A stretch of 64,000 nucleotides of DNA, taken from the NCBI GenBank assembly GCA_947624325.1, contig CANQJT010000002.1:1-64000 (forward strand), written 5' to 3'. The translations under genes were made by a program, and so were the position numbers. Shown piece by piece: positions 1 through 23,957 of this stretch (the first letter of the stretch is position 1; each line of letters starts with the position of its first letter). This DNA is from Candidatus Gastranaerophilales bacterium. GTDB lineage: Bacteria; Cyanobacteriota; Vampirovibrionia; Gastranaerophilales; Gastranaerophilaceae. The notes beneath the pieces are model-generated. The model saw nothing but the letters and a program-made list of their open reading frames with translations, did not search any database and was not told where the DNA came from.

Positions 1-305
1 ATCTGAGGATTTGTTTTAAGTGCATTAACGCACTGCCTGAAAATATCCGAAGTATAAAATCTTGGAATTTCATCAAGTTCCTTTGCTATTTCTTCTAATA
101 ACCACTTTGGACTCATAGAATTTGTTGCTCTGACATAAATTGCATCATATTGAATAGATAAGTACAAAGCCGTTTTAGTTTTCCCGAGACCCGCATTACC
201 ATAAACCAATCCGATTTTTGTAATATTTTCAGGTTTATTTTTTAAGTTGTGAATTAGGCTGATAAAACCTTTGACATTCTTCGTTTTAACAAATATCGGT
301 TTCAT
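1..305 (-). CDS. MuB/TniB-like transposition ATPase, 5' part only
   Basis: The ATG is at 305 and the gene runs leftward off the window, so only about 101 residues are visible. A P-loop (GNAGLGKTK) lies near residues 37-45, after a short N-terminal segment. This is the layout of the AAA ATPases that act with Mu/Tn7-type transposases (MuB, TniB, TnsC), which bind DNA and choose or activate the target. Its first 20 bases overlap the 3' end of the transposase gene, so the two genes are probably translationally coupled. I infer the role mainly from this A-B gene order; the Walker B and arginine-finger regions are outside the window. Confidence 0.8.
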   Translation of the reverse strand, partial: MKPIFVKTKNVKGFISLIHNLKNKPENITKIGLVYGNAGLGKTKTALYLSIQYDAIYVRATNSMSPKWLLEEIAKELDEIPRFYTSDIFRQCVNALKTNPQ

Positions 306-2283
306 ATTGCTTATACTCCTTTGATTCTTTATATTCTGTAAGCCAAACTCTGTCATCATTACAAGTACAACCGTGCACCATTAAGTATTCATATCTTTCT
401 CTGCTCGTTTTGAATAAAGGTTTAACCGCAGGGTTATATTTTTTAGGCTTTTCTTTTTTGTTTTCTATCTTTGGAACAATCGGCGGAGGTAAAAATGTAT
501 CTTCGTCTTTTTCTGGCTCGCACTCTAAAATTTCCAAATCATCAATATTCAAAAACTCTTTACAGGCTTTTATTGTCTTATTTTTAAGCTGTTTTTGTTT
601 TTGAATTTTCTGCTTGTAATCCTCAATATCCTTTATTTCGCCCGTGTAATGAGCAAGCGGATGAGTCAGGGTAATTCTTTCTGCTCGGCATAAAAATTTA
701 CCGGTAATTGTGTAAACATTGATGTAACTTAAATCAAACAGGCTGTATTTTATTATTACTTTCTGTCTTAAGCCATAAAGTGCATCGTTATAGTAATCAG
801 ATTTTAAAAACCTTATTCCTTGACTTGTTATAGTTTTAATCTCCTGTGCCAGCATTAAATCATCTAATTCACTCTGATTTATTTCTTGTTTTTCAATGTT
901 ATCAAGCATTTCTTTGATGCTTTTTGTTTTATTATTAGGACACGGCAAAGAATTTTTATACTTAAGCCAACTGTTTATCATCTGAATTGTATGCTGAATC
1001 GTGGGAATAAATTCCTGATGTATTTCACTATGAAATTTTTCATTCCTTCTTAGCCTTGCCGGTTTATTTTCTATATTTGTTCCGATATAACTTGGCAGCA
1101 GTTTTTCAAAACTTTCCTGCATTTCTAAAAAGAACCTTTCAATAACTTTGGCTCTTGCGTTATACGGATTTGCAAAAACTGTTGTTATACCAAGTTTTTC
1201 GTAAATCCCTTTTATGCCAATCTTATTGAAATTAGCAATTCCTACAAAATATTTACCCCTAAATGCTCTGCCGTTATCTAAATATACAAATTTTGGAATT
1301 TTTCCTAAATTTAGTATTGCATTGCGAAGTGCTGAAGCAATATTCTGTGTATTTTCTTCTATCATTATTTCATAACCAACTAATGCGGATGATTTCCAAT
1401 CTATGAAACCGATTAAGGTTGCTCGGCAAGGTTTTCCCGTAAACGGGTTTATTACCTGAAAATTTAATCTTTTTCCGTCAGCGACTAAAACTTCTCCGAC
1501 TCCGATTTTGGAAATATCTCTTTTTATGTGAGGAATAACTTCTTCTTTCAGTGCTTTTTCTCCGTCACGCAATAGCGTCCATTTGTCAAAATAATTTGCT
1601 TTATACCAGTTAGCAAATCTCCTGAACGTCGGCGCAGCTGGAATATATTCAGAATCTTGAGTTCTCAGAACATACTGTGTTAGAGATATTGCTTTTCCTA
1701 TGCTGAATTTATTCGGGTGCAATAAAAGTTTTAAAAATATTTGTTTTTCATAATCCGTAAGACAAGTTCTTGAATAATCTTCATAATGATAATTCGGGAC
1801 TAATAGTTCATAATTATTGCTATTCCCTAAAATCCTTTTCCATCTTTGAAGTGTCCCTATTGAAACATTTCCGAGTTTTGCATAAATCTCCGGATACAAA
1901 ACTTGTGCGTTGTATGCACCTAAAAAATCATTATCAAATTGAGTTTTATTCTGCTGAGTTTTGCGTTCTTGTTTCCAAAGATTCAATAAATTCAATCGAG
2001 CAAGTGCAATAACTTTTGCTTTGTCAGGTTTGTGAAAATCAGTTGGTGTGAGAAGCTGTTTTTTAGTATAAGTCGGAACAATTTTGGAATAATACTTTTC
2101 CTGAAGCTCCGGTTCAATACTTGATAGCAAAATCTCAAAACTTTTTCCGCCTTTGACAGTTATTTTTCTGGTTACATATTTATTCAAAGATAACCTGATT
2201 GCTCGGGTGCTAACACCTTTAAGCTCTGCTAATTCTTTGATTGCAATGTATTTTTCTTCGTTCATTGTATTAACATCTATCAC
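286..2283 (-). CDS. Mu/Tn7-superfamily DDE transposase
   Basis: This 665-residue protein catalyses strand transfer in a Mu-like or TniA/TnsB-like element. An N-terminal helix-turn-helix of the MuA type covers about residues 10-60. The rve/DDE core has three acidic sites: VADGK, YLDNG, and the glutamate in KVIERF about 35 residues after the second Asp. The C-terminal 150 residues are basic and probably contact the ATPase. Translation may start at GTG 2283, or at ATG 2265 (MNEEKY); neither has a clear Shine-Dalgarno site. The ATPase gene follows with a 20-bp overlap, and an HTH protein is divergent across a 188-bp gap. The order matches the Mu c / A-B arrangement, so the element extends to the left of the window. 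The exact family (Mu phage or Tn7-like transposon) cannot be settled here. Confidence 0.9.
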   Translation of the reverse strand: MIDVNTMNEEKYIAIKELAELKGVSTRAIRLSLNKYVTRKITVKGGKSFEILLSSIEPELQEKYYSKIVPTYTKKQLLTPTDFHKPDKAKVIALARLNLLNLWKQERKTQQNKTQFDNDFLGAYNAQVLYPEIYAKLGNVSIGTLQRWKRILGNSNNYELLVPNYHYEDYSRTCLTDYEKQIFLKLLLHPNKFSIGKAISLTQYVLRTQDSEYIPAAPTFRRFANWYKANYFDKWTLLRDGEKALKEEVIPHIKRDISKIGVGEVLVADGKRLNFQVINPFTGKPCRATLIGFIDWKSSALVGYEIMIEENTQNIASALRNAILNLGKIPKFVYLDNGRAFRGKYFVGIANFNKIGIKGIYEKLGITTVFANPYNARAKVIERFFLEMQESFEKLLPSYIGTNIENKPARLRRNEKFHSEIHQEFIPTIQHTIQMINSWLKYKNSLPCPNNKTKSIKEMLDNIEKQEINQSELDDLMLAQEIKTITSQGIRFLKSDYYNDALYGLRQKVIIKYSLFDLSYINVYTITGKFLCRAERITLTHPLAHYTGEIKDIEDYKQKIQKQKQLKNKTIKACKEFLNIDDLEILECEPEKDEDTFLPPPIVPKIENKKEKPKKYNPAVKPLFKTSRERYEYLMVHGCTCNDDRVWLTEYKESKEYKQYETDIC

Positions 2284-6299: not shown

Positions 6300-9200
6300 T
6301 TAAATTATGTTCAAACTGCAATAAGAATTTCTATAAGGACAAAACGTACTGCACTCATTTTTGTTTGTCATTGGTTCAAACTTATTTGCTTTAATATCAG
6401 CTATTGCATTTCTAAATTTATCAACAACTCTCTTACAATTTTCTTGAGATAATTTTAGTTCAAAGGGGGTTTTAAAGTCTCTTGGAAATAAAAATAAAGT
6501 TGTTATATCTTCATATCCGCAATTCAGCTCTTTGCAGAGGAAATGTTTATAAAGTGCCATTTGATTATAATAATTTTCGTGCACTCCTCCTTCACAAATT
6601 TCTTTTTCGTCTTTTTTATCTCCGGTTTTATAATCATAAATAATATATTTACCGTCAGGCAGTTTATCAATTCTGTCTAGTTTTCCGGTGAATTTTGTAC
6701 CGTCTATATCAAAAGTAAATTCGTGTTCTGCTTTATATAATTGTTCAACAGGTGTCATTCTTAAACGGTCATAAGCACATTCTCCGTCTTTTTCTTTAGT
6801 AAGAACAACTGCACCGTCAACAAGCATTCTTTTTAATTCTAATTTACTTGAGACAGGCAATTCTTTTAATGTATTTTCAAATTTATGTATAAATTCTGCT
6901 TTTGAAGGGAATACTTTATTTTCAATAGCATAATTAACGGCAAATTCATAAGCAGCATGTACTGCCGTTCCAAAGTGTGCCTTATCCGCATTATCTGTTT
7001 TAGGTGATAAGCCTAATAAATGAGTATATAGATATTCTCTATGACAATCTAAATAGCAATTAACACTTGATGCCGAAAACACTTTTTCGGATATTATATT
7101 GTTTAAATATTCCTTAAATTCTTTATAATAGTCTCTATCGCATATAGTTAAAGATTTTATAACTTCATTTTCAAAACTTGAATGAGCATCTTTATCTTTT
7201 TCAAATTCTTCAATACTGAGGCGGTCTTTAACGGTTTGCGGAGTCAAAAGTTCAAGAGGTTCAGCATCTTTTCCGTCAATTCTTATTTTTGTATAAGATA
7301 GATTTAAAGAGTGCTTTGCTCTTGTCATTGCCACATATATACGTTTTACAAGATTAGATTTTGTTATTTTTTTCTTTTCTTCCTTGGAAATTGTTTTACC
7401 CGTTATATTGTCTTTTGAAATATCATCTTTAATACTTAACGGAATTTTAGGATTTTCAAAATCATTCTTTTTGTTTATAAGATATGGCATATAAACATAT
7501 TCAAATTCCATTCCTTTAGAAGCATGATAAGTTATAAGTTTTACGGAATTTTGTTTAATCGGAGGTTTATCAGCAAAAATCTTTATTCCCTCCAACATAG
7601 CTTTTTCAAGATATGATACAAAAAATTCAAAAGTGACCGGTTTTTCTAGTTCCAAATAACTTTCAGCTTCGTCAACCAGTTTTTTTAATCCTGCAATATT
7701 TTCGCTTCTGTTTACGGGGTTATTAAAATAATATTCAAATATACCGGTTTTATTGCCAATCGTAAGAATTGCATCTTTTAAATTAGTACATTGTTTTATA
7801 TCTTTTAATTCATCGTAAATTTTTAAAAATCTATCTATTTTCTCAGGTTCTGCAAATGAAAGATTGATTTTTTCTCCGTTTTTATTTGTTACTTTATAGG
7901 TATAGCTGTTATCTTTAAATTTACGCATATTTTGAATAAAAGAAGAAAAAGAATTCCTTGTTCTGTATAACACTTCATAATCTTTTTCATTTATATCAAA
8001 AGGCTTTGAAAGTATCATTTTAAAGAATGATTCACTATATAGTGTTGAATTACAAAGAAATTGCATATACAAAAACATTACAACAAAAGATTGAATATCA
8101 AAAACATTTTTGCCGTTTGCTCTTTCATAAGGGATATTTGCAGCTTGAAGAAGTTTTGCATATCCGTCGAGTTCTTCATGTTTATTAGCCAGTATTGCGA
8201 TTTCGGATAGATTTTTTTCTTTTGTATTTTTATCAATAGGGCAATCAGGCGAATTAATAAGTGATTTTATTTTATCGACTATATCAATTTGCTCTTCTAA
8301 AGAATCTCTATATATCGTACATTTCACATCTTTATTTTTCGGAACAAGCTCCATATTAACTGATGACAGTTCTTTTGATATATTAAACCGTTTAAAATAA
8401 CTGTCTTTTTCTAAACTTATATCATCTTGTAAAACTATCTGTCGGACAAGTTCAAGGATTTTTGCCGTTGAACGCCTGTTCTCTTTAAAACAGATAACGT
8501 CTTCATCTTTAACATTTAATCTTGTAATAAAGTTTTTAATGCTATCTAATCTTGCCCCTTGAAAGGTGTAAATAATTTGGTCATCATCACCTACAACTAA
8601 AACATTTTTCTTTTGCATATTTTCGGCGAGATAGAATAATACTTCATTTTGAGAAATATTTGTGTCTTGATATTCATCAGTTATTATATAATCATAATTT
8701 GAAGCTATTTCTTTAACTAAACTTTCGTTTCTTTCAAACTCATCTAAAAGCATAGTAATCATATCACCGAAATCAAGAAAATTTTTTCTTTGCATTTTGA
8801 GCTTATACAGGCTGTATAATTCCCATAGTTCTTGTGCCTTTGCAATTTTCTTTTCAGCATCAATTAAAACTTTTGTTTTTGGTTTATCCGGGTTTTTTAA
8901 CAGTGTTTTTTGCCAATTTTCATATTTTTCATTTACAAGAGGAATCCAATCCGGATTGTTATTAAGATTATCAAAATATTTCTTTTTATCTAACCTGTAT
9001 TTTTTTATTTCTTCAATTCTATCAAGAATTTCATCTATAAAAAAGTATGGCCCGTTTTTTTCTGTTTGAAAACTTGTAGGTTCCTTCCTTTTTTCAAGAT
9101 TTTCGTCAATACATTCTTTCATAAATGCTTTTTTTACGGAATCTGTTATAATTTTTATATTTTCGCCAATTCCGAATATATCAGGGTGATTTTTTATTAT

Positions 9201-9494
9201 GTCAAGACAAAAGCTGTGATAAGTATAGATATTAACATTAGAACTTGTGACATCAAGAGCTTTTTCAACACCTTTTTTCATTTCTTTTGCCGCAGTATCG
9301 GAAAATGTAAGACATAATATTCTCTCTTCTGGAGTTCCTGTTTCAATTATTGTTTTAATTCTTTGAGAAACAGTAAAAGTCTTACCGGTTCCGGGGCCTG
9401 CTAAAACCAGAAAAATCCCGTCTCTTTTATATGTATCTATAGCCTTTTGCTGCTCAGCATTTGGTTTTGGTGTTAGTTTTAATTCCGTTGTCAT
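6300..9494 (-). CDS. UvrD/PcrA-type helicase fused to RecB-like Fe-S nuclease
   Basis: This 1064-residue protein has SF1A helicase motifs: Walker A AGPGTGKT (residues 32-39), DEYQDTN, VGDDDQIIY, ITYHASKGMEF and YVAMTRAKH. From about residue 815 it continues into a RecB-family PD-(D/E)XK domain: GTAVHAAYE, an Asp in the KLDRID strand, then YDYKTGDKK. One cysteine before the nuclease (YLDCHREY) and three at the C-terminus (CSTFCPYRNSYC) fit the Fe-S cluster of AddB/Cas4-type nucleases. It probably unwinds and degrades DNA. It is the last gene of the WYL-nuclease-helicase operon, overlaps the upstream nuclease gene by 41 bp, and its start has AGAGGA as Shine-Dalgarno site. A general repair enzyme is possible, but context favours defence. 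Confidence 0.85.
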   Translation of the reverse strand: MTTELKLTPKPNAEQQKAIDTYKRDGIFLVLAGPGTGKTFTVSQRIKTIIETGTPEERILCLTFSDTAAKEMKKGVEKALDVTSSNVNIYTYHSFCLDIIKNHPDIFGIGENIKIITDSVKKAFMKECIDENLEKRKEPTSFQTEKNGPYFFIDEILDRIEEIKKYRLDKKKYFDNLNNNPDWIPLVNEKYENWQKTLLKNPDKPKTKVLIDAEKKIAKAQELWELYSLYKLKMQRKNFLDFGDMITMLLDEFERNESLVKEIASNYDYIITDEYQDTNISQNEVLFYLAENMQKKNVLVVGDDDQIIYTFQGARLDSIKNFITRLNVKDEDVICFKENRRSTAKILELVRQIVLQDDISLEKDSYFKRFNISKELSSVNMELVPKNKDVKCTIYRDSLEEQIDIVDKIKSLINSPDCPIDKNTKEKNLSEIAILANKHEELDGYAKLLQAANIPYERANGKNVFDIQSFVVMFLYMQFLCNSTLYSESFFKMILSKPFDINEKDYEVLYRTRNSFSSFIQNMRKFKDNSYTYKVTNKNGEKINLSFAEPEKIDRFLKIYDELKDIKQCTNLKDAILTIGNKTGIFEYYFNNPVNRSENIAGLKKLVDEAESYLELEKPVTFEFFVSYLEKAMLEGIKIFADKPPIKQNSVKLITYHASKGMEFEYVYMPYLINKKNDFENPKIPLSIKDDISKDNITGKTISKEEKKKITKSNLVKRIYVAMTRAKHSLNLSYTKIRIDGKDAEPLELLTPQTVKDRLSIEEFEKDKDAHSSFENEVIKSLTICDRDYYKEFKEYLNNIISEKVFSASSVNCYLDCHREYLYTHLLGLSPKTDNADKAHFGTAVHAAYEFAVNYAIENKVFPSKAEFIHKFENTLKELPVSSKLELKRMLVDGAVVLTKEKDGECAYDRLRMTPVEQLYKAEHEFTFDIDGTKFTGKLDRIDKLPDGKYIIYDYKTGDKKDEKEICEGGVHENYYNQMALYKHFLCKELNCGYEDITTLFLFPRDFKTPFELKLSQENCKRVVDKFRNAIADIKANKFEPMTNKNECSTFCPYRNSYCSLNII

Positions 9495-11157
9495 TATTTC
9501 TTATCCTCTTTTTTTTGGGGGGGGGTAGTTCTTCTATTCTTTGCGCAAATCGTTCGTACATTTGTCTTTCTTGGATATTATCCGTATCATTAGAATGACG
9601 ATCTATGGCATATAAAAATTCGTCATAATATTCTATTTTACTTTGATATTTTTCTTTTCTCTCTTTTTTATTGAAGAAATCAAATATTTTTTTATAGTCT
9701 ATTATTTTGTAATTTAATTCATCAATATTAACACCCTCAATGTCTTTTAATTTTGTGTCAGTGCCTTCTTTGTATTCTGACTTTTTTATTAAAAATTTAT
9801 GTACATTGCTATTTATGTCATTTACTTTAAAATTTTTATATTTTGGAGCAAAGATGAAAAAGTGCCTGTCTTTATAATTTTCATATCCGTTTGATTCTCT
9901 TTCTTCATCATTATCATCTATTTCGCTTTTTAGGCGTTTATAAGTGTATCCGTTTTTATCACTTCCTTTGTCTACTACATATCCAAAAGTATAATGAATA
10001 TATTTGCTTAATTGATTTCCGACTTCTTCTCCTGCTTCATCGTGCCTTACCCCGTTTATTCCCGATTTTATTTTATTTTCAATTACAATAAGAGTCTTGT
10101 TTTCCATATCATCTATCAATAAATCAATGTTGCCTTCTTCTCTTACAAATCTTAGGTTATCCGAGGATGATAAAGTTTTAATTTTCAAAACCTCATTCGC
10201 AAATTCGCAAAATAATTCAGGACTTGATTTAAAAATATGGAAAAATAAATTGGTATAAGTTAATTCATCGTACTCTTGTCTTATAATCCCGATAAAATTG
10301 TTTTTATTGACACCTGAAACAATCAGATTAGCATCTTTCAGTTCTTTATATGTTCTTACTGGATTTTCATTACCTTTAGCCCAAAAATCACCCTTTATGA
10401 TCTTGTTTTTAATATTGTTATAAACTTGTTCAAGATTTTTATTATTGTGCATTCCGTTTACTACGTATTGTTTTAAACTTCTGGATGAGAAGTTAAGTTT
10501 ATTATGAGGTTCTACATCTTCATTAATGTATATAAATTCTTCTTTTGGGTTTTGGATTTCTTTTTTTTCACTATTTTCTTCTTCATTATTGTTATTTATT
10601 TCTCTGCATTTCTCCCAAGTTTCTTTATCGTCAACAATAAATACTCTATACTCAGGCTTTACTTTTATTATTTTATCAACTTCAAATGTTGCATATAATA
10701 TAGGTTGAGTAACATGCTTATTTTTTGAAAATATTTCTTCTAATCCCTTCCCATCATATGTATATTTTTCTAAACTTTTTAAATGTATTTTCGTATATTC
10801 TTTATTTTTCTTATTATTTTTATAGTCATCAATCAGATTAACTAATTTCCCCTCAGTTTTTGCAAGAATTTCCTGCATTGATAATGTTTTTGTTTGATTA
10901 TTGTCATCTTTATATTCTCTTTTACACCAACGAGTATAAAGTACACAGCTTGCTTTCCATTCTTCCTTATGAAATTTATCTTTTATTTTACCGTCATTTG
11001 TAATATATACTAAATAACTATTACACTCCTCACTTTCATCGGGTTTTATTAAATTAATTACTTCATGTCCGAGATTTTCACCTAAATACTCGCCTGCGTA
11101 CATTCTGTTTAAAATTATTACATCTGTTGGGTTTTTAGCTTCTTTTTCTTTTTCCAT
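9454..11157 (-). CDS. PD-(D/E)XK nuclease-family protein (PDDEXK_4-like)
   Basis: This 567-residue protein is recognised by a central-to-C-terminal nuclease core: an Asp in GNIDLLI followed by the ENK triad in LIVIENKI, then a conserved Q-L-x-K-Y motif, as in the PDDEXK_4 group often seen in defence loci. The N-terminal 200 residues (CVLYTRWCKREY and after) are not recognised. It sits between the WYL regulator (31-bp gap) and the helicase-nuclease gene (41-bp overlap), so the three are one leftward operon. Its 3' end contains a C9-A8 run (minus strand) that encodes PPPKKK. Slippage there would change the C-terminal tail and its overlap with the next gene. Target and mechanism are unknown. Confidence 0.7.
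   Translation of the reverse strand: MEKEKEAKNPTDVIILNRMYAGEYLGENLGHEVINLIKPDESEECNSYLVYITNDGKIKDKFHKEEWKASCVLYTRWCKREYKDDNNQTKTLSMQEILAKTEGKLVNLIDDYKNNKKNKEYTKIHLKSLEKYTYDGKGLEEIFSKNKHVTQPILYATFEVDKIIKVKPEYRVFIVDDKETWEKCREINNNNEEENSEKKEIQNPKEEFIYINEDVEPHNKLNFSSRSLKQYVVNGMHNNKNLEQVYNNIKNKIIKGDFWAKGNENPVRTYKELKDANLIVSGVNKNNFIGIIRQEYDELTYTNLFFHIFKSSPELFCEFANEVLKIKTLSSSDNLRFVREEGNIDLLIDDMENKTLIVIENKIKSGINGVRHDEAGEEVGNQLSKYIHYTFGYVVDKGSDKNGYTYKRLKSEIDDNDEERESNGYENYKDRHFFIFAPKYKNFKVNDINSNVHKFLIKKSEYKEGTDTKLKDIEGVNIDELNYKIIDYKKIFDFFNKKERKEKYQSKIEYYDEFLYAIDRHSNDTDNIQERQMYERFAQRIEELPPPKKKRIRNNDNGIKTNTKTKC
9509..9525. repeat. T8-G9 homopolymer tract (slippage-prone)
   Basis: Eight T (9509-9516) followed by nine G (9517-9525) lie inside the 3' end of the nuclease gene, 15 bp before the helicase start. 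On the coding strand this reads C9-A8. Adding one base would end the nuclease at a TAATG that directly abuts the helicase start; losing one would end it at a TAA 9 bp before it. Both are seen by reading the frames. Confidence 0.7.
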
Positions 11158-11188: not shown

Positions 11189-12178
11189 TTACTTCTCTTT
11201 TTGATTTAAAAGAGTATTTTCAAGCATTTCAATGTATTCTTTTTTTAAAGTGTTAGGTGAGAGGATTTTGACATCTTCTCCCCATTTGAATAAGTGCCAT
11301 AATATCTCTTTGTCGCCCGAAGCCTTAAATTTTACTGTTACAGTGCCGTCATCATTCTTCTTTATCTTTTGTGTAGAGTGAAAATGATAATTTAATACAT
11401 CATCCGCTACGTTTTTTGAAAATAGCAACTTTACATCAAAACACTCACCCTGATACACTCCAAACGATTTTTTTGAAAATTCCTCAAGGTTAAAATTACC
11501 TTTATCAAATGTTTCATTTGTTATTTTAACCTCCGAAAATTTATGAAGTAAATAACAATAAGGGTTTGTTCCTTTATCTTCTTCCACCCCTATAAGGTAT
11601 ACTTTAGCACCGTATATTAACCCGTAAGGGGCAAGAACTTTATTTTTATTGTTATACTTTGCACTTATTTTTTTATTTGAAGTCATAGCTTCTCTTATTG
11701 TTTCAAGCATATTAAGGTCAAATTTATGTCTTGGGGTCTGCTGAATTACAAAACCTTCCGTCTGCATTAAAATTTCTATGGCATTATCAAATTGAGGTAA
11801 TTTTTTTCTGCTCAAAGCTCTTATTTTATTTATGGTCTGCTCTATAATTTTGGCTTTATCTTCTGTTCCTTGCTCTTGTTGATATTTTTTTAAGTTTTCT
11901 AGATTTGCAATTTCTTCAGGGGTAAAACTTATAATCTCTCTCATATAAGCGGTAGGAAATCCCCAATATTTTTCTCTTGATTTAAAATTTTCAATTTCTT
12001 CCACTTGCGGAACTGCAAGCATAAGGCTATCTCTCATCCTCTCCGCAGTTCTTCTGGATACACCAAATTCTTTCATAATATCATTTAACGAAACCCCCTG
12101 CACTCTTGACTGCATTAGTATCATTAACTCTACAATGTCCGTGGTTCTTGAATATCTCGGTTTTTCTTCCATTTCCAT
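11189..12178 (-). CDS. WYL-domain transcription regulator (wHTH-WYL-WCX)
   Basis: This 329-residue protein has an N-terminal winged helix (VSLNDIMKEFGVSRRTAERMRDSL, about residues 30-55), a WYL domain (LAPYGLIYGAKVYLIGVEED, about residues 175-225) and a C-terminal WCX domain. BrxR and CapW have the same layout; they are dimeric repressors that bind inverted repeats before BREX, CBASS and other defence genes. It is the first gene of the leftward nuclease-helicase operon. Its own promoter carries a 19-bp inverted repeat, and another sits in the divergent promoter. I therefore propose it as the regulator of the operator family found across the island. That assignment is inference. Confidence 0.9.
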   Translation of the reverse strand: MEMEEKPRYSRTTDIVELMILMQSRVQGVSLNDIMKEFGVSRRTAERMRDSLMLAVPQVEEIENFKSREKYWGFPTAYMREIISFTPEEIANLENLKKYQQEQGTEDKAKIIEQTINKIRALSRKKLPQFDNAIEILMQTEGFVIQQTPRHKFDLNMLETIREAMTSNKKISAKYNNKNKVLAPYGLIYGAKVYLIGVEEDKGTNPYCYLLHKFSEVKITNETFDKGNFNLEEFSKKSFGVYQGECFDVKLLFSKNVADDVLNYHFHSTQKIKKNDDGTVTVKFKASGDKEILWHLFKWGEDVKILSPNTLKKEYIEMLENTLLNQKEK

Positions 12179-12218: not shown

Positions 12219-12245
12219 CAAATTATATCATTTATTATGTTTTTA

Positions 12246-12279
12246 TACCACCGTTTTGGACATACCTAAAAATTATAAT
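12246..12279 (+). promoter_or_regulatory. Island operator/promoter, divergent 56-aa gene
   Basis: TACCAC (12246-12251), a 7-bp spacer, GACATA (12259-12264), and TATAAT at 12274-12279. It faces the opposite way from the WYL promoter, 28 bp to its right, and precedes the Shine-Dalgarno site AAGGAG of the 56-residue gene. Confidence 0.6.
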
Positions 12280-12300
12280 ATCTAAAAAAGGAGAAAAATT

Positions 12301-12471
12301 ATGGGTAAATTTATGGTAACAAATCATAAAGTAATTAGATTTTTAGGCTTTAAAATTATTGATATTTGGGATGACTACTTTGAAAGACAGATAATCGGAG
12401 ATGAAATCATTACCACAGGGGACATTGAAACCACCAATGACTATCCTGATAACAAAAAACAAGACATTTAA
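12301..12471 (+). CDS. Small unknown protein (56 aa)
   Basis: ATG 12301 follows a strong AAGGAG site at the right distance, downstream of an island-type promoter. The product is 56 residues and soluble, with an IIDIWDDYFERQIIGDEIITTGD core and an acidic, polar tail. I do not recognise it. Size and position beside a nuclease operon would suit an antitoxin, a modulator or a phage sensor, but nothing in the sequence decides. Confidence 0.6.
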   Translation: MGKFMVTNHKVIRFLGFKIIDIWDDYFERQIIGDEIITTGDIETTNDYPDNKKQDI

Positions 12472-12548: not shown

Positions 12549-13547
12549 ATGAGTGAAATTCAAAAAGAAAAATTTAAAAAATTAGTTAATTTTGCAGAGT
12601 CATATATTATTGAAAATGCAGAAAAAGTGCTATTAGCAGTGCGAGATGAAAAATTATCCGAAACAAACCCCCATGAGCGCTGCCAAAAACTATTGGAAAA
12701 ATATAAGCCAATTTATGGACTGGGCGTCGATGAAATTCCCGTCGATGACTTCAAGAAAATTTTAAATGAGTTTTGCAGAGAATTACAGAATTACCAAGCA
12801 ATGCCAAAGGCAATAAATTATCTCTCTTTTTCTGTTGACAAAGATAATAATGAGATTTTAAATTGTGTATATGAATTTTTATCAGAAAAATTTAATGAAA
12901 TTGGAATAAATTCTAATCTATTAAGAGAATTAGAAGGAAAATTTCTTGATATTAAAAACAAGAATTCATCTGATGATGAGCAAAGCAAAGAATTGAATAA
13001 AGCATGGGAAAAATATTCACGTGGGTTAATGGATGTTCTTATTAAAATAAAAGGAAAATCTTCTGATATTGATAAAGCGAAAGAAAAATTTATTGAATCA
13101 ATAAATAAAGATTGCGATTATTTTAATAATGTAGATGGCATTATTGAAGAAATTGAAAAAGATGAGGCTAAAAAGAAAGATTCTGACTTTAACTCTGAAT
13201 ATAATAAATATAGAGACCGTTTAAGAGAGTTTAACAAAGACATCTTTGGAATGGGTGATACATTAACATTAGATTTCTTTAAAGAACTTAAATGTGAAAA
13301 TCTTATAAAAAATGATTCTCATATAATTGCTTGTTATAAACATGTCGGGGGTAAGTGTAAGGAGAAAAATAAAATCGTTTTTGAATTTATAAGTATGTGT
13401 AAAAAGATTGAATACACTCCTTTTTATGTGGATAAAATTCTATGGTTATGCTGTACCGGTAATTTTGATAAAGACGGAATTATAATAACCAAAATGAACA
13501 GAACAAAATTTTTTAAAGAAATAGAAAAAAGCAAGATTCTTAAATAA
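12549..13547 (+). CDS. Unknown helical protein (332 aa)
   Basis: The ATG follows GGGAG. The 332-residue product is strongly charged (Lys/Glu/Asp-rich), has no signal peptide or membrane segment, and looks mainly alpha-helical with possible coiled-coil stretches around residues 140-235. It reads as two related halves: YGLGVDEIPVDDFKKIL near residue 60 resembles FGMGDTLTLDFFKEL near residue 233, which suggests an internal duplication. I recognise no family. It lies between the small 56-residue gene and the duplicated promoter of the DnaB-like/RT pair, and may belong to either unit. Confidence 0.7.
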   Translation: MSEIQKEKFKKLVNFAESYIIENAEKVLLAVRDEKLSETNPHERCQKLLEKYKPIYGLGVDEIPVDDFKKILNEFCRELQNYQAMPKAINYLSFSVDKDNNEILNCVYEFLSEKFNEIGINSNLLRELEGKFLDIKNKNSSDDEQSKELNKAWEKYSRGLMDVLIKIKGKSSDIDKAKEKFIESINKDCDYFNNVDGIIEEIEKDEAKKKDSDFNSEYNKYRDRLREFNKDIFGMGDTLTLDFFKELKCENLIKNDSHIIACYKHVGGKCKEKNKIVFEFISMCKKIEYTPFYVDKILWLCCTGNFDKDGIIITKMNRTKFFKEIEKSKILK

Positions 13548-13641
13548 TATTATTTAATGATACCCACGCTTTTGCACTATTAACCGAATAAGTATTAGTA
13601 GTTCTTTAATATCTCGGCTTATCTTCCATTATAAAAAATAT

Positions 13642-13670
13642 ATGAATCTGTATATTCTATACAGATTCAT
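13642..13670. promoter_or_regulatory. Perfect palindrome, 13-bp arms
   Basis: ATGAATCTGTATA and TATACAGATTCAT are exact inverted repeats around TTC. They stand where the leftward operator stands in the other repeat copy. This could be the operator of a different dimeric regulator, or a hairpin in a leftward transcript. Confidence 0.55.
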
Positions 13671-13687
13671 AATTTATTTTGTTTTTA

Positions 13688-13721
13688 TACCACCGTTTTG
13701 GACATACCTAAAAATTATAAT
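13688..13721 (+). promoter_or_regulatory. Island operator/promoter, DnaB-like/RT pair
   Basis: TACCAC (13688-13693), spacer of 7, GACATA (13701-13706), TATAAT at 13716-13721. It is identical to the copy at 12246-12279 because the segment is duplicated. Confidence 0.6.
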
Positions 13722-13741
13722 ATCTAAAAAAGGAGAAAATA

Positions 13742-14548
13742 ATGAATAAAATTAACACTGAAGAATTATTAAAGAAAAACGATGAAATCAATTTTTCCAC
13801 GGGTTTTGAGGATATTGACGAATGCGTGTTGAATGTTGATAAAGGAAGTATAATAACTATTGGCGCAAGACCCGCTATGGGAAAAACTTCATTAGCATTT
13901 TCCATATTAAATCATTTATTGGAAGAAAATAAAAAAGTATTTTATTTTTCACCCTCAAACACGATTAAAATGATTGAAAAACTGCTTATTACAAATAAAT
14001 TAGGGATAGACTTTTTTCAGTTTGAAAAGGAATTAAAATCTAAAGGAAATTTATTTAAAAAAACACTTGAATATTATTCCGATAAAGAATTTTATATCAG
14101 TGATAAGACTAATTTAACGGTTGAAGATATTGAAAAAGAGATAAAAGAAAATATACCTGATGTTGTTTTTATTGATTACATTCAGCTTTTAAAAATGCCA
14201 AAAGCTCCTAATTTTACGGATTCAATTAACCTTGCGGTGCAAGAGCTTAAACGTATAGCTCAAGAAACAGGAGTTATTTTTGTGATACTGACTCAACTTT
14301 CAAGAGGGGTTGAAGAACGGGGTGATAAAAGACCTTTGCTGTATGACATAAGAAATTCAAGTCTGCTTGAAGAATTATCTGATGTTGTAATGATGATTTA
14401 CAGGGAAAGTTATTATAATTTTGACGATGAAACAAATAAAAATCTTGCTGAAATTATCTTTCGTAAAAACAATTTCGGGCCGCTTTCCGTTATAATGTTG
14501 AGATTTGAAAAAGGTAGATTTTCTAATGTAAATGACACAACATTTTAG
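13742..14548 (+). CDS. DnaB-like RecA-fold ATPase without the N-terminal helicase domain
   Basis: This 268-residue protein matches only the C-terminal RecA-type motor of replicative helicase DnaB. Visible features are STGFEDID, Walker A GARPAMGKTS (about residues 41-50), Walker B VVFIDYIQLL (about 141-150), LTQLSRGVEERGDKRPLLYDIRNS and a final arginine-finger-like FEKGRF. The N-terminal collar domain of DnaB is absent, so it is not the cellular helicase. The gene starts after AAGGAG and is followed by the reverse transcriptase only 12 bp later, with which it is surely co-transcribed. A motor or sensor partner of the RT is my inference. Confidence 0.85.
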   Translation: MNKINTEELLKKNDEINFSTGFEDIDECVLNVDKGSIITIGARPAMGKTSLAFSILNHLLEENKKVFYFSPSNTIKMIEKLLITNKLGIDFFQFEKELKSKGNLFKKTLEYYSDKEFYISDKTNLTVEDIEKEIKENIPDVVFIDYIQLLKMPKAPNFTDSINLAVQELKRIAQETGVIFVILTQLSRGVEERGDKRPLLYDIRNSSLLEELSDVVMMIYRESYYNFDDETNKNLAEIIFRKNNFGPLSVIMLRFEKGRFSNVNDTTF

Positions 14549-14560
14549 GAGAAATCTAAA

Positions 14561-15454
14561 ATGCAAAAAATATACATAGGGTTTAATATGTTTTATGAAG
14601 TTTACAAAAACGGTAAACGAACTATTTATGCTCCATCTAAAGACCTAAAAAATGTTCAAAGGCAGATTTTAAACTTTATAAAAACAAAGTATAAACTTAA
14701 ATTTAATATTAAAGAAACGGCAGAAATTCATTGCAATCAAAAGTGGATTTTAAAACTTGATATAAGAAAGTTTTATGAATCCGTTTCAAAAGAACAAATA
14801 AAATCTGTAATAGATAATATTTACGAAACTGTTACTTTCCCCAAAGAATACTATTCCAAAAAGGCTTTATATCAATTACTGACAATAGAAGATAAATTGC
14901 CGACAGGTGCGGTAACTTCCTGCCTTATTGCAAATCTCGCTTTTTCAAAAACTAAGATTGATGAGAATTTAAAAGCATTTTGCTTGCAAAATAATCTTAA
15001 ATACTCCCGTTACATGGATGATATGTTCTTATCGGGAAACAATAAAGCCAATTTAAAAAAAGCGGAAAAATTTGCAATAAAGCTTTTACAAGAAGCGGGT
15101 TTTAATTTAAACTACGAAAAAACTCAATATATTTCAAACAACAAAAGGCAGGAAATATTAGGGCTTGTAGTAAATAACCCAATGGATTGTGTTATTTCAA
15201 ATGAGAAAAAACATAACTACCGTTCAATGTTTTTTAATTATTTAAAAGCAGTTTATTTAGAAGAACGGTTGGGAATAAATTCTTTATTTAAAAAGAAAAT
15301 CGGATTTAAAGAAATAACGGGACATTTAGCCTATATAAAATCAACAGATAAGAAATTTTACACGATAATAAAGAAGTTTTTAAAGTTGAAAATAAATAAA
15401 TTCGGTATTTATAATAATGATGAAATAAAAAAATTGCGAAAGATTATTAAATAA
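14561..15454 (+). CDS. Retron-like reverse transcriptase
   Basis: This 297-residue RT shows the palm motifs in order: KLDIRKFYESV (RT3, near residue 65), LPTGAVTSCLIANL (RT4), YSRYMDDMFLS with the catalytic YxDD (near residue 150), GFNLNYEKTQYIS (RT6) and ILGLVVN (RT7, where retrons usually have VTGL). There is no maturase, protease or Cas domain, and its size is that of retron RTs. RT4 lacks the usual QG...SP, having TG...SC. Start ATG 14561 follows AGGAG; ATG 14588 is possible. A DnaB-like ATPase gene takes the place where the msr-msd RNA usually lies, and I could not identify an msr-msd RNA. It could also belong to an unclassified RT group. Confidence 0.85.
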   Translation: MQKIYIGFNMFYEVYKNGKRTIYAPSKDLKNVQRQILNFIKTKYKLKFNIKETAEIHCNQKWILKLDIRKFYESVSKEQIKSVIDNIYETVTFPKEYYSKKALYQLLTIEDKLPTGAVTSCLIANLAFSKTKIDENLKAFCLQNNLKYSRYMDDMFLSGNNKANLKKAEKFAIKLLQEAGFNLNYEKTQYISNNKRQEILGLVVNNPMDCVISNEKKHNYRSMFFNYLKAVYLEERLGINSLFKKKIGFKEITGHLAYIKSTDKKFYTIIKKFLKLKINKFGIYNNDEIKKLRKIIK

Positions 15455-15474
15455 AGACAATATATAATTCTCAT

Positions 15475-15511
15475 AACAAAAAGCAGCTCTTTAAAAAGAA
15501 CTGCTTTTGTT
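15475..15511. terminator. Terminator after RT gene
   Basis: AACAAAAAGCAGCTCTTT pairs with AAAGAACTGCTTTTGTT (one mismatch), with T-rich ends on both strands. It ends the DnaB-like/RT transcript and could also end a leftward transcript starting near 15590. Confidence 0.8.
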
Positions 15512-15592
15512 AAAAAAGACGATTGCGAGCTTGCGAAGCAATCAACTTACCTTATTAAATTTACGTGGTTTAAAGCGAAACGCTCACCATAA
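15475..15592 (-). ncRNA. Possible small leftward transcript
   Basis: On the minus strand the operator at 15612-15630 has a TATTAT box at 15602-15597. A transcript from there would run about 110 bases to the terminator at 15511-15475, with no long ORF. It would contain the hairpins AGCG-TTT-CGCT and GATTGC-N11-GCAATC. It could be an sRNA or RT-related RNA, or simply a repeat hairpin. Confidence 0.25.
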
Positions 15593-15611
15593 ATATATAA
15601 TAATTTCCTTA

Positions 15612-15645
15612 TATGTCTGATTAGGTCGTACTTAATTTTTATATA
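15612..15645. promoter_or_regulatory. Island operator facing both ways
   Basis: TATGTC (15612-15617), 7 bp, GTCGTA (15625-15630). Rightward, TATATA at 15640-15645 is ten bases after GTCGT and precedes the 472-residue gene. Leftward, TACGAC-N7-GACATA is followed by TATTAT at 15602-15597 with the same spacing. Confidence 0.5.
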
Positions 15646-22838: not shown

Positions 22839-23957
22839 ATGAAAGAAATACAAGGTAAATATACCAAAGCAAAAATATTCACTGATAACATTGAAGAAAG
22901 TGCAATAAAGCAAGTTGAAGATATATGCAATCATCCTATTTTTGAAGATTGCAAAATTAGAATTATGCCTGACGGTCATACGGGAAAAGGCTGTACAATA
23001 GGGTTTACTTCAACTCTGCCTAAAAACGGAGAAATCATACCAAATATAATAGGGGTTGACCAATCTTGCGGTATGCTCACGATTAAACTTAAAGAATGTA
23101 AGACACTTAGAGATTATCTGAAATTAGATAAAGTAATAAGGCAGTATATTCCGACAGGTTTAAGAGGAAGAAAAACAATATCAGCTTTAGTTCCCGAAGA
23201 ATTAAAAGAAGAAGTAATCAGATATAATAAAGATTATTTAAAACGAGGTGCTAATGATGACCTGTTAAAAATCGGCTCACTCGGGGCGGGTAATCATTTT
23301 ATTTCAATAGAAAAAGGGCAGACAGGCACTTACTTAATTATTCATAGCGGAAGCAGAGATTTTGGAAATAAAATGGCTGTTTATTTTCAACAAAAAGCTA
23401 TTGAAACTAATTTATATAATGAGGGAGAACTAAAACAGCTTTCATATTTAAAAGGTGATGATACTCTTGACTATTTGAATTGTGCGAAAGTGTGCAGAGA
23501 ATATAGCCATTATAGCCGTTATATTATGGCAAAAGAGATTTTGGATAATATGGGCTGGAGCGAAATTGAAGCCTTTGAAACAATCCATAACTATATTGGA
23601 GAAGATAACATAATAAGAAAAGGGGCAATATCAGCGAAAAAGGGAGAAAAGGCTTTAATTCCGATTAATATGGCATACGGAAGTTTTATTGTAATAGGCA
23701 AAGGCAACGAAGATTGGAATAATTCAGCTCCACATGGGGCAGGAAGATTATTTTCAAGAACAAAAGCAAAAGAAGTATTAACAATGAAAGAATATAAAGA
23801 AAGTATGAAAGGTATTCACAGCACTTGTATAACGACGGGAACAATAGATGAAAGTCCTATGGCATATAAAAACGGGGATGAAATAAAAGAACTGATAACA
23901 CCCACTGCCAATATAATCGACCATTTAATCCCCGTATATAATTACAAGGCAAGTTAA
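22839..23957 (+). CDS. rtcB: RtcB-family RNA ligase
   Basis: RtcB joins RNA 2',3'-cyclic phosphate or 3'-phosphate ends to 5'-OH ends using GTP and Mn2+, and repairs cleaved tRNAs. This 372-residue protein has the metal-site motifs PDGHTGKGCTIGF, GVDQSCGM (the Cys and Asp ligands), GSLGAGNHF, IHSGSRDFG and the active-site HGAGRLFSR, with the guanylylation region near TTGTIDESPMAYKN. It is of the short class; the second motif reads DQSCGM where DIGCGM is usual. No rtcA or archease gene is near. It is followed by an HTH protein and preceded by an island operator. Repair of tRNA cut by an anticodon nuclease of a phage or toxin would fit the setting. Confidence 0.92.
   Translation: MKEIQGKYTKAKIFTDNIEESAIKQVEDICNHPIFEDCKIRIMPDGHTGKGCTIGFTSTLPKNGEIIPNIIGVDQSCGMLTIKLKECKTLRDYLKLDKVIRQYIPTGLRGRKTISALVPEELKEEVIRYNKDYLKRGANDDLLKIGSLGAGNHFISIEKGQTGTYLIIHSGSRDFGNKMAVYFQQKAIETNLYNEGELKQLSYLKGDDTLDYLNCAKVCREYSHYSRYIMAKEILDNMGWSEIEAFETIHNYIGEDNIIRKGAISAKKGEKALIPINMAYGSFIVIGKGNEDWNNSAPHGAGRLFSRTKAKEVLTMKEYKESMKGIHSTCITTGTIDESPMAYKNGDEIKELITPTANIIDHLIPVYNYKAS

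Follow-up and report, generated by a model that had tools for sequence, protein, structure and literature searches.

A DnaB-like motor gene, a retron-like reverse transcriptase and a convergent structured RNA: a candidate three-part system in Gastranaerophilales

The locus and conservation of the DnaB-RT pair

The stretch of DNA analysed here (the window) comprises 64,000 nucleotides, positions 1-64,000 of the forward strand of contig CANQJT010000002.1 from the assembly GCA_947624325.1 of a Candidatus Gastranaerophilales bacterium, which belongs to a gut-dwelling group. Its forward strand encodes a DnaB-like lone motor domain of 268 aa (13742-14548), the putative effector, and, 12 bp downstream as already given in the preliminary description, a retron-like reverse transcriptase (RT) of 297 aa (14561-15454). 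Ahead of the two genes lies a palindromic operator (ATACCACCGTTTTGGACATAC, 13687-13707, forward strand) with TATAAT 8 bp downstream, and beyond the RT gene, on the opposite strand, a structured non-coding RNA (ncRNA) of ~125 nt is encoded convergently (15473-15598). The ncRNA promoter has an operator of its own (GTACGACCTAATCAGACATAT, 15611-15631, minus strand), which reads leftwards. A divergent neighbouring gene (11189-12178, minus strand) encodes an HTH-WYL-WCX regulator of 329 aa (WCX 1.8e-12, WYL 7.7e-5).

Relatives of the RT were collected by scanning 84,980 species genomes and by surveying 383 genomes within the order. Using tblastn, a DnaB-like gene was found directly upstream of the RT gene at every locus checked, down to an RT identity of ~34-35%, and the pair thus forms a conserved two-gene operon at some 30 loci. 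The gaps between the two genes ranged from -35 to +62 bp, mostly from -14 to +24 bp, with many of the genes overlapping; a larger gap at L008 was an artefact of a wrongly chosen RT start. Values of dN/dS between 0.11 and 0.28 for both the DnaB-like and the RT genes indicate purifying selection, which argues that the pair is no chance arrangement. Two copies are decaying, one with an in-frame TAG in the RT gene (G049, L029) and one with a frameshift near the DnaB C-terminus (G125, L003).

A score gap sets the DnaB-associated RTs apart in a survey of the phylum, their clade reaching at least 322 bits and all other matches at most 137. The nearest RT devoid of a DnaB partner, at L045 (~30% identity), belongs to the ordinary type II-A retron RTs (330.8 bits); this and a 602-aa RT fusion (L105) are other Gastranaerophilales RTs, and neither had a DnaB match within the stretch covered. 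Viral contigs yielded no relative. Among the matches listed from plasmid and phage records there were only distant RTs, nearly all at or below ~34% identity with the exception of one short piece, and a DnaB-like gene was present at none of 14 RT loci taken from such records.

The reverse transcriptase is retron-like

The RT had been called retron-like with a YMDD motif, an assignment borne out by sequence models, tree and fold. Matching RVT_1 at 1e-19, it was best described by retron RT models, namely PADLOC RT_II-A (156.9 bits) and NF038233, the retron St85 RT (158.8 bits, below the cut-off of 235). The DRT-type model Drt3a gave 44.6 bits against a cut-off of 200, which speaks against an RT of a DRT/UG clade. 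Retron RTs (Ec86, Ec83, Kva2 and Ec78) also led a search of the sequences of solved structures. When the AF2 model of the RT (pLDDT 91.5) was used for a fold search of the PDB, the top 18 matches were all retron RT chains, ahead of G2L4, DRT and group II, the RTs of Ec86, Ec78, Ec67, Ec83 and Eco8 being the nearest; fold E-values were ~1e-18 to 1e-12 against retron RTs versus 1e-9 against DRT RTs.

In a tree of 47 rows, the DnaB-associated RTs formed one clade (95/84) that branched beside the 17 retron-side RTs sampled, as their sister group, and was not nested among them, a position that is provisional owing to several long branches in a tree which had four distant RTs outside and did not include a DRT/UG reference set. 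The departures from consensus in RT4 and RT7 that had been noted in the window were confirmed (LPTGAVTSC and ILGLVVN), and LG in place of TG in motif 7 proved invariant (26/26): VTG occurs in 0/26 members of the clade, the motif always being (I/V/L)LG. Similarly, NAxxH is replaced by xAxxH, with H in 26/26, A in 25/26 and N in 0/26. Accepted retrons also vary at these positions, VTG being present in 47% and NAXXH in 59% (PMC4244168).

The DnaB-like protein keeps Walker A and B but has an incomplete hydrolysis site

The 268-aa protein matched the DnaB C-terminal domain alone (PF03796, 2.3e-49), and the domain search matched no DnaB N-terminal domain in it. The AF2 model (pLDDT 83) gave top PDB fold matches that were all DnaB, among them 3bh0 at 30% identity and a TM of 0.88, and the protein seems to retain some of the linker helix by which one subunit packs on its neighbour. 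The roles of the Walker, catalytic Glu and arginine-finger residues are well established for DnaB. On comparing 28 homologues, with residues numbered on B. stearothermophilus DnaB (Bst), we found K216, D320, R365 and K418 retained in 28/28. The catalytic Glu (E241) was kept in 13/28 and is Ser in the window. At the site of the arginine finger (R420), where the solved DnaBs that were aligned have the equivalent Arg, only 2/28 homologues have Arg, so that the finger is lost in 26/28; Lys occupies the site in 11/28 and Asn in the window. The protein is thus a lone motor with intact Walker A and B, as first described, but its active site is incomplete. That ATP binding is retained while the hydrolysis site is incomplete points to a switch, or to a protein that poisons rings, more than to a helicase that unwinds processively.

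A structured RNA convergent with the RT gene

The preliminary description had overlooked a third component, the ncRNA that lies directly 3' of the RT gene on the opposite strand. Side-by-side comparison of the 3' flanks revealed a common order, on the strand opposite the RT, of palindromic operator, TATAAT, hairpin A, A-rich linker, hairpin B and terminator hairpin. In the window, hairpin A (15567-15588, minus strand), which is supported by covariation and folds, is the 5' element and has a conserved GG/CC stem with a GCG-NUU-CGC apex. Hairpin B (15521-15543, minus strand) is a variable, msd-like stem, supported by its fold and by double changes at all six modelled pairs, and hairpin C (15475-15511, minus strand), supported by covariation and folds and T-rich on both sides, is probably a bidirectional terminator that separates the ncRNA from the RT gene.

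Compensatory changes in hairpin A were already apparent in the first alignment of 23 ncRNA copies, for which RNAalifold returned hairpin A alone, since some rows were out by one column at hairpin B. Run against the locus set, a covariance model (R1) then gave 26 strong matches, each of them directly 3' of an RT gene and on the strand opposite to it; the match that followed (22.9 bits) was noise. The window copy scored 72.2 bits and is the sole strong copy in its genome, where the next match reached 26 bits. In an enlarged alignment with 11 further copies, standard pairing was maintained in 90% of cells, 18/24 pairs changed on both sides, and the covariation score was 0.453, compared with 0.19 in shuffled controls and no more than 0.15 in slid ones; these counts lean towards the model, as this alignment was fitted to it, but no structure was used in making the first. 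Pairing in hairpin B is maintained as its sequence and length vary (18 bp in L027 and more than that in L077), a behaviour that resembles the msd hairpins of retrons.

The covariance search thus yielded a structured ncRNA beside the RT, but not a canonical msr-msd. No retron or other Rfam family matched the ncRNA at either gathering or relaxed thresholds. Retron RNAs by definition carry a 5' a1 repeat (PMC13158370). In 19/37 copies the -10 ends 9 nt ahead of hairpin A, which places hairpin A at ~+2 of a transcript whose start is deduced from the promoter, and a 5' a1 repeat would therefore have no room. No end-to-end pairing of the a1/a2 kind was present in the ncRNA folds and no branching G was identified in the ncRNA; with neither a place for a1/a2 nor such a G, retron-type priming may not apply.

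Several other readings of the RNA and its surroundings were considered and set aside. A 3' UTR on the forward strand was rejected, as the operator and the -10 face leftwards; in addition, the minus strand folds better (-36.5 versus -30.2 kcal/mol) and G-U exceeds A-C by 44 to 20, and by 19 to 13 within hairpins A and B. The promoter is the main ground for the strand assignment, and the excess of G-U pairs is modest. An attC-like cassette site was likewise rejected, since the genome of the window carries just one strong copy. Weak matches in G270 and G085 (~37 bits) are attributable to chance, as they are devoid of an operator and overlap host genes. The region upstream of DnaB was also rejected as an msr-msd: no shared structure was seen there by eye, and at L004 the WYL and DnaB starts are just 147 bp apart with both promoters inside, so that the usual msr-msd site is unavailable. 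A perfect hairpin (13641-13671) was set aside as well: it falls within a decayed duplicate of the WYL promoter and 5' region, and the relatives did not show it.

Two promoters share an operator

The island-type promoter that had been ascribed to the pair is real, and consists of the 21-bp palindromic operator followed by TATAAT, ~34 bp ahead of the ATG. The operator consensus is approximately CTATGwC-N6-TGACATAG, and in most relatives it lies 33-37 bp ahead of the DnaB ATG. It also precedes the ncRNA in nearly all loci, with the same spacing to TATAAT as in the DnaB promoter, the window included. The WYL gene and additional genes of the island have such sites too (4200, 12199, 12245, 15670, 18558 and 22788), single weak ones being uncertain because 16 sites were found compared with 4-11 in shuffled sequence at the same threshold, using a matrix trained in part on the sites that it finds. 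A WYL orthologue adjoins the pair in L002-L007, and 30/31 genomes with the system have a WYL homologue at E<=1e-30. Position and shared sites suggest that the neighbouring WYL protein probably binds and regulates these operators.

Near the operon there is a 97% direct repeat (12227-12297 and 13669-13739), a duplication that took in the operon promoter and a decayed WYL 5' end. The repeat copies flank a gene of 332 aa (12549-13547), to which no family was assigned and which L002, a near-identical locus, lacks. A 56-aa ORF (12301-12471, MGKFMVTNHKVIRFLGFKIIDIWDD...) stands behind an operator, and in L002, L005 and L006 similar ORFs of 50-56 aa separate the operator from DnaB. An operator site also precedes an RtcB RNA ligase gene (22839-23957), and an RtcB-like gene is present in the related island L072. 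Elsewhere, a Mu-type transposase gene occupies the left end of the window (286-2283, minus strand), followed by genes for a UvrD helicase with a PD-(D/E)XK nuclease domain (6300-9494, minus strand) and for a 567-aa protein with no assigned family (9454-11157, minus strand), which resembles a 720-aa gene adjoining the ncRNA in L074.

RT and ncRNA occur together

Co-occurrence was counted in one set of 191 genomes of the family, with an ncRNA threshold of E<=1e-6. The RT was present in 16 genomes and the ncRNA in 16, with both in 15 and each alone in one (Fisher p=4e-20, a value that overstates the linkage as the genomes are related and not independent). With the order survey added, the ncRNA was found in 28/29 genomes carrying the pair. 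The two discordant genomes are informative: G125 has an RT and the frameshifted DnaB gene without the ncRNA, and G106 (99% complete; L072:6626-7639) has a DnaB-like gene and a convergent ncRNA with the RT missing. In three genomes (G368, G287 and G394) the ncRNA sits on a different contig, and so the ncRNA can probably act in trans. In two further cases, ncRNA copies (L074:6708-6856 and L075:6730-6876) lie beside WYL genes with no RT or DnaB gene adjacent, the pair being elsewhere in those genomes. At L073, an additional gene of 196 aa (6903-7493), its family unassigned, occupies the RT-ncRNA interval.

Relation to known systems

Among the PADLOC models and the open-access literature searched, none of the 13 described retron types had a DnaB-like partner, in keeping with what the preliminary description had stated; nor did the RT fall in a described clade with the same partner. 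A PADLOC scan of the DnaB-like protein returned mad8 (mads_8) alone, at 29 bits, and no retron partner model. The open-access literature searched contained neither a DnaB-retron pairing nor such a system in Melainabacteria or with WYL, and no retron work in this bacterial lineage.

The type II-A/St85 retrons (Ec86, St85) likewise have an effector gene followed by an RT gene, and they provide the nearest RT both by sequence models (RT_II-A and NF038233) and by fold (Ec86, 7v9x). In contrast to these, however, the putative effector here is DnaB-like and not that of St85, (I/V)LG stands for VTG, the RT falls below the NF038233 cut-off, and the ncRNA is convergent, 3' of the RT and without room for a1. 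Type I-A retrons (Ec78, PtuA-PtuB) and Eco8 (OLD) likewise combine an ATPase with a retron-type RT and an ncRNA, but their ATPases, PtuA and OLD, are not DnaB-like, and they possess a nuclease subunit or domain of which none was found here. DRT2 and DRT9 share the combination of an RT with a structured ncRNA, whereas here both sequence and fold put the RT on the retron side and an additional ATPase is present. As for the motor, it has the fold, Walker A/B, K418 and QxxR motif of the replicative DnaB C-terminal domain and differs from it in having no N-terminal domain, in the loss of the arginine finger (26/28) and, in the window, of the catalytic Glu.

The suggestion of a new retron type therefore stands in part. 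The RT is retron-like, a structured ncRNA accompanies it and a putative effector gene shares its operon, but no canonical msr-msd was found, the RNA is convergent, a1 has no room, and VTG and the N of NAxxH are absent. We place the system with the RT-ncRNA-effector kind, and not as a proven retron.

A proposed mechanism and its alternatives

The direct observations, namely the pair, the structure and covariation of the RNA, the co-occurrence, the shared promoter architecture and the residue losses, lead us to favour, by a modest degree, a three-part retron-like system in which the RT, the convergent structured RNA and a DnaB-derived motor effector are expressed from two promoters with a shared operator and work as follows. 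The RT would bind the ncRNA through the conserved hairpin A and copy part of it into DNA, most likely the variable hairpin B; we propose these roles because hairpin A is conserved and hairpin B varies in the manner of an msd. The complex of RT and RNA/DNA would keep the DnaB-like ATPase inactive. Such restraint is proposed by analogy with retrons, in which RT and msDNA hold an effector in check until phage infection (PMC13158370), and by the same analogy the system probably has a role in phage defence. Phage infection would then change or remove the nucleic acid and so free the ATPase. Processive unwinding is not its likeliest action, given that the arginine finger is lost, that the catalytic Glu is lost in the subclade of the window and that ATP binding is kept; the freed ATPase would more likely poison or decoy the replicative DnaB ring of host or phage, and replication would stop. 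Such ring poisoning is a guess, with the catalytic Glu kept in 13/28 homologues and Lys at the finger site in 11/28.

A bolder version of this proposal, which we put forward only tentatively, would make the system a distinct class of RT-RNA-effector system beside retrons. In this class a trans-acting RNA with its own convergent promoter, and without a1/a2 or retron-type priming, would control a catalytically crippled DnaB, and this protein would block replication by joining the ring of the replicative helicase or by imitating it.

The ncRNA could instead be a separate small RNA of the WYL regulon (antisense, antitoxin-like or regulatory) that is not the RT template, with the RT and the DnaB-like protein using another nucleic acid. 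We regard this as unlikely. The ncRNA adjoins WYL with no RT nearby in L074 and L075, and G106 combines it with DnaB in the absence of the RT, both as such an RNA would allow; yet all genomes with a strong ncRNA carry the RT or at least DnaB, even across contigs, and the sole RT genome without the ncRNA has a broken DnaB gene.

It is less probable again that the locus is a new type of canonical retron with its msr-msd elsewhere (for instance 5' of DnaB), the convergent RNA being an operon regulator or terminator region. In sequence and in fold the RT is nearest to those of retrons, the effector-RT order is that of St85-type loci, and VTG and NAxxH vary among accepted retrons too (PMC4244168). 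However, the DnaB-RT gap is near zero, the 147-bp WYL-DnaB interval of L004 contains both promoters, no second conserved structure was seen by eye upstream of DnaB, and VTG is missing in 26/26.

We give equally little credence to the view that the three parts serve a mobile island in replication, copy control or transfer rather than in defence, with DnaB as a mini replicative helicase. A Mu-type transposase at the left end of the window, phage-type integrases adjoining several copies of the system and the known mini-DnaB helicases of phages (phrog_243) would fit this view. Against it, the ATP hydrolysis residues of the ring are unconserved, unlike those of a working replicative helicase, viral contigs gave no match, and phage and plasmid records listed none above ~34% identity bar one short piece; moreover, WYL-controlled islands with nuclease genes look like defence islands. 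Least probable is a DRT-like system, in which DNA synthesis primed by protein or RNA would use the ncRNA as its template and the DnaB-like protein would handle the product. RT-ncRNA pairs of this kind are known (PDB entries of DRT2 and DRT9), but the RT is far nearer to retron than to DRT RTs in sequence and in fold (E ~1e-18 to 1e-12 versus 1e-9).

As a three-part retron-like system, the locus adds to the RT-based systems a replicative-helicase motor as a new class of putative effector, a new RNA family and a new layout that is convergent and at times in trans. A basal RT on the retron side paired with a different RNA could inform the origin of RNA recognition and priming in retrons, and, if a disarmed DnaB does block replication forks, this would be a defence aimed at the helicase itself.
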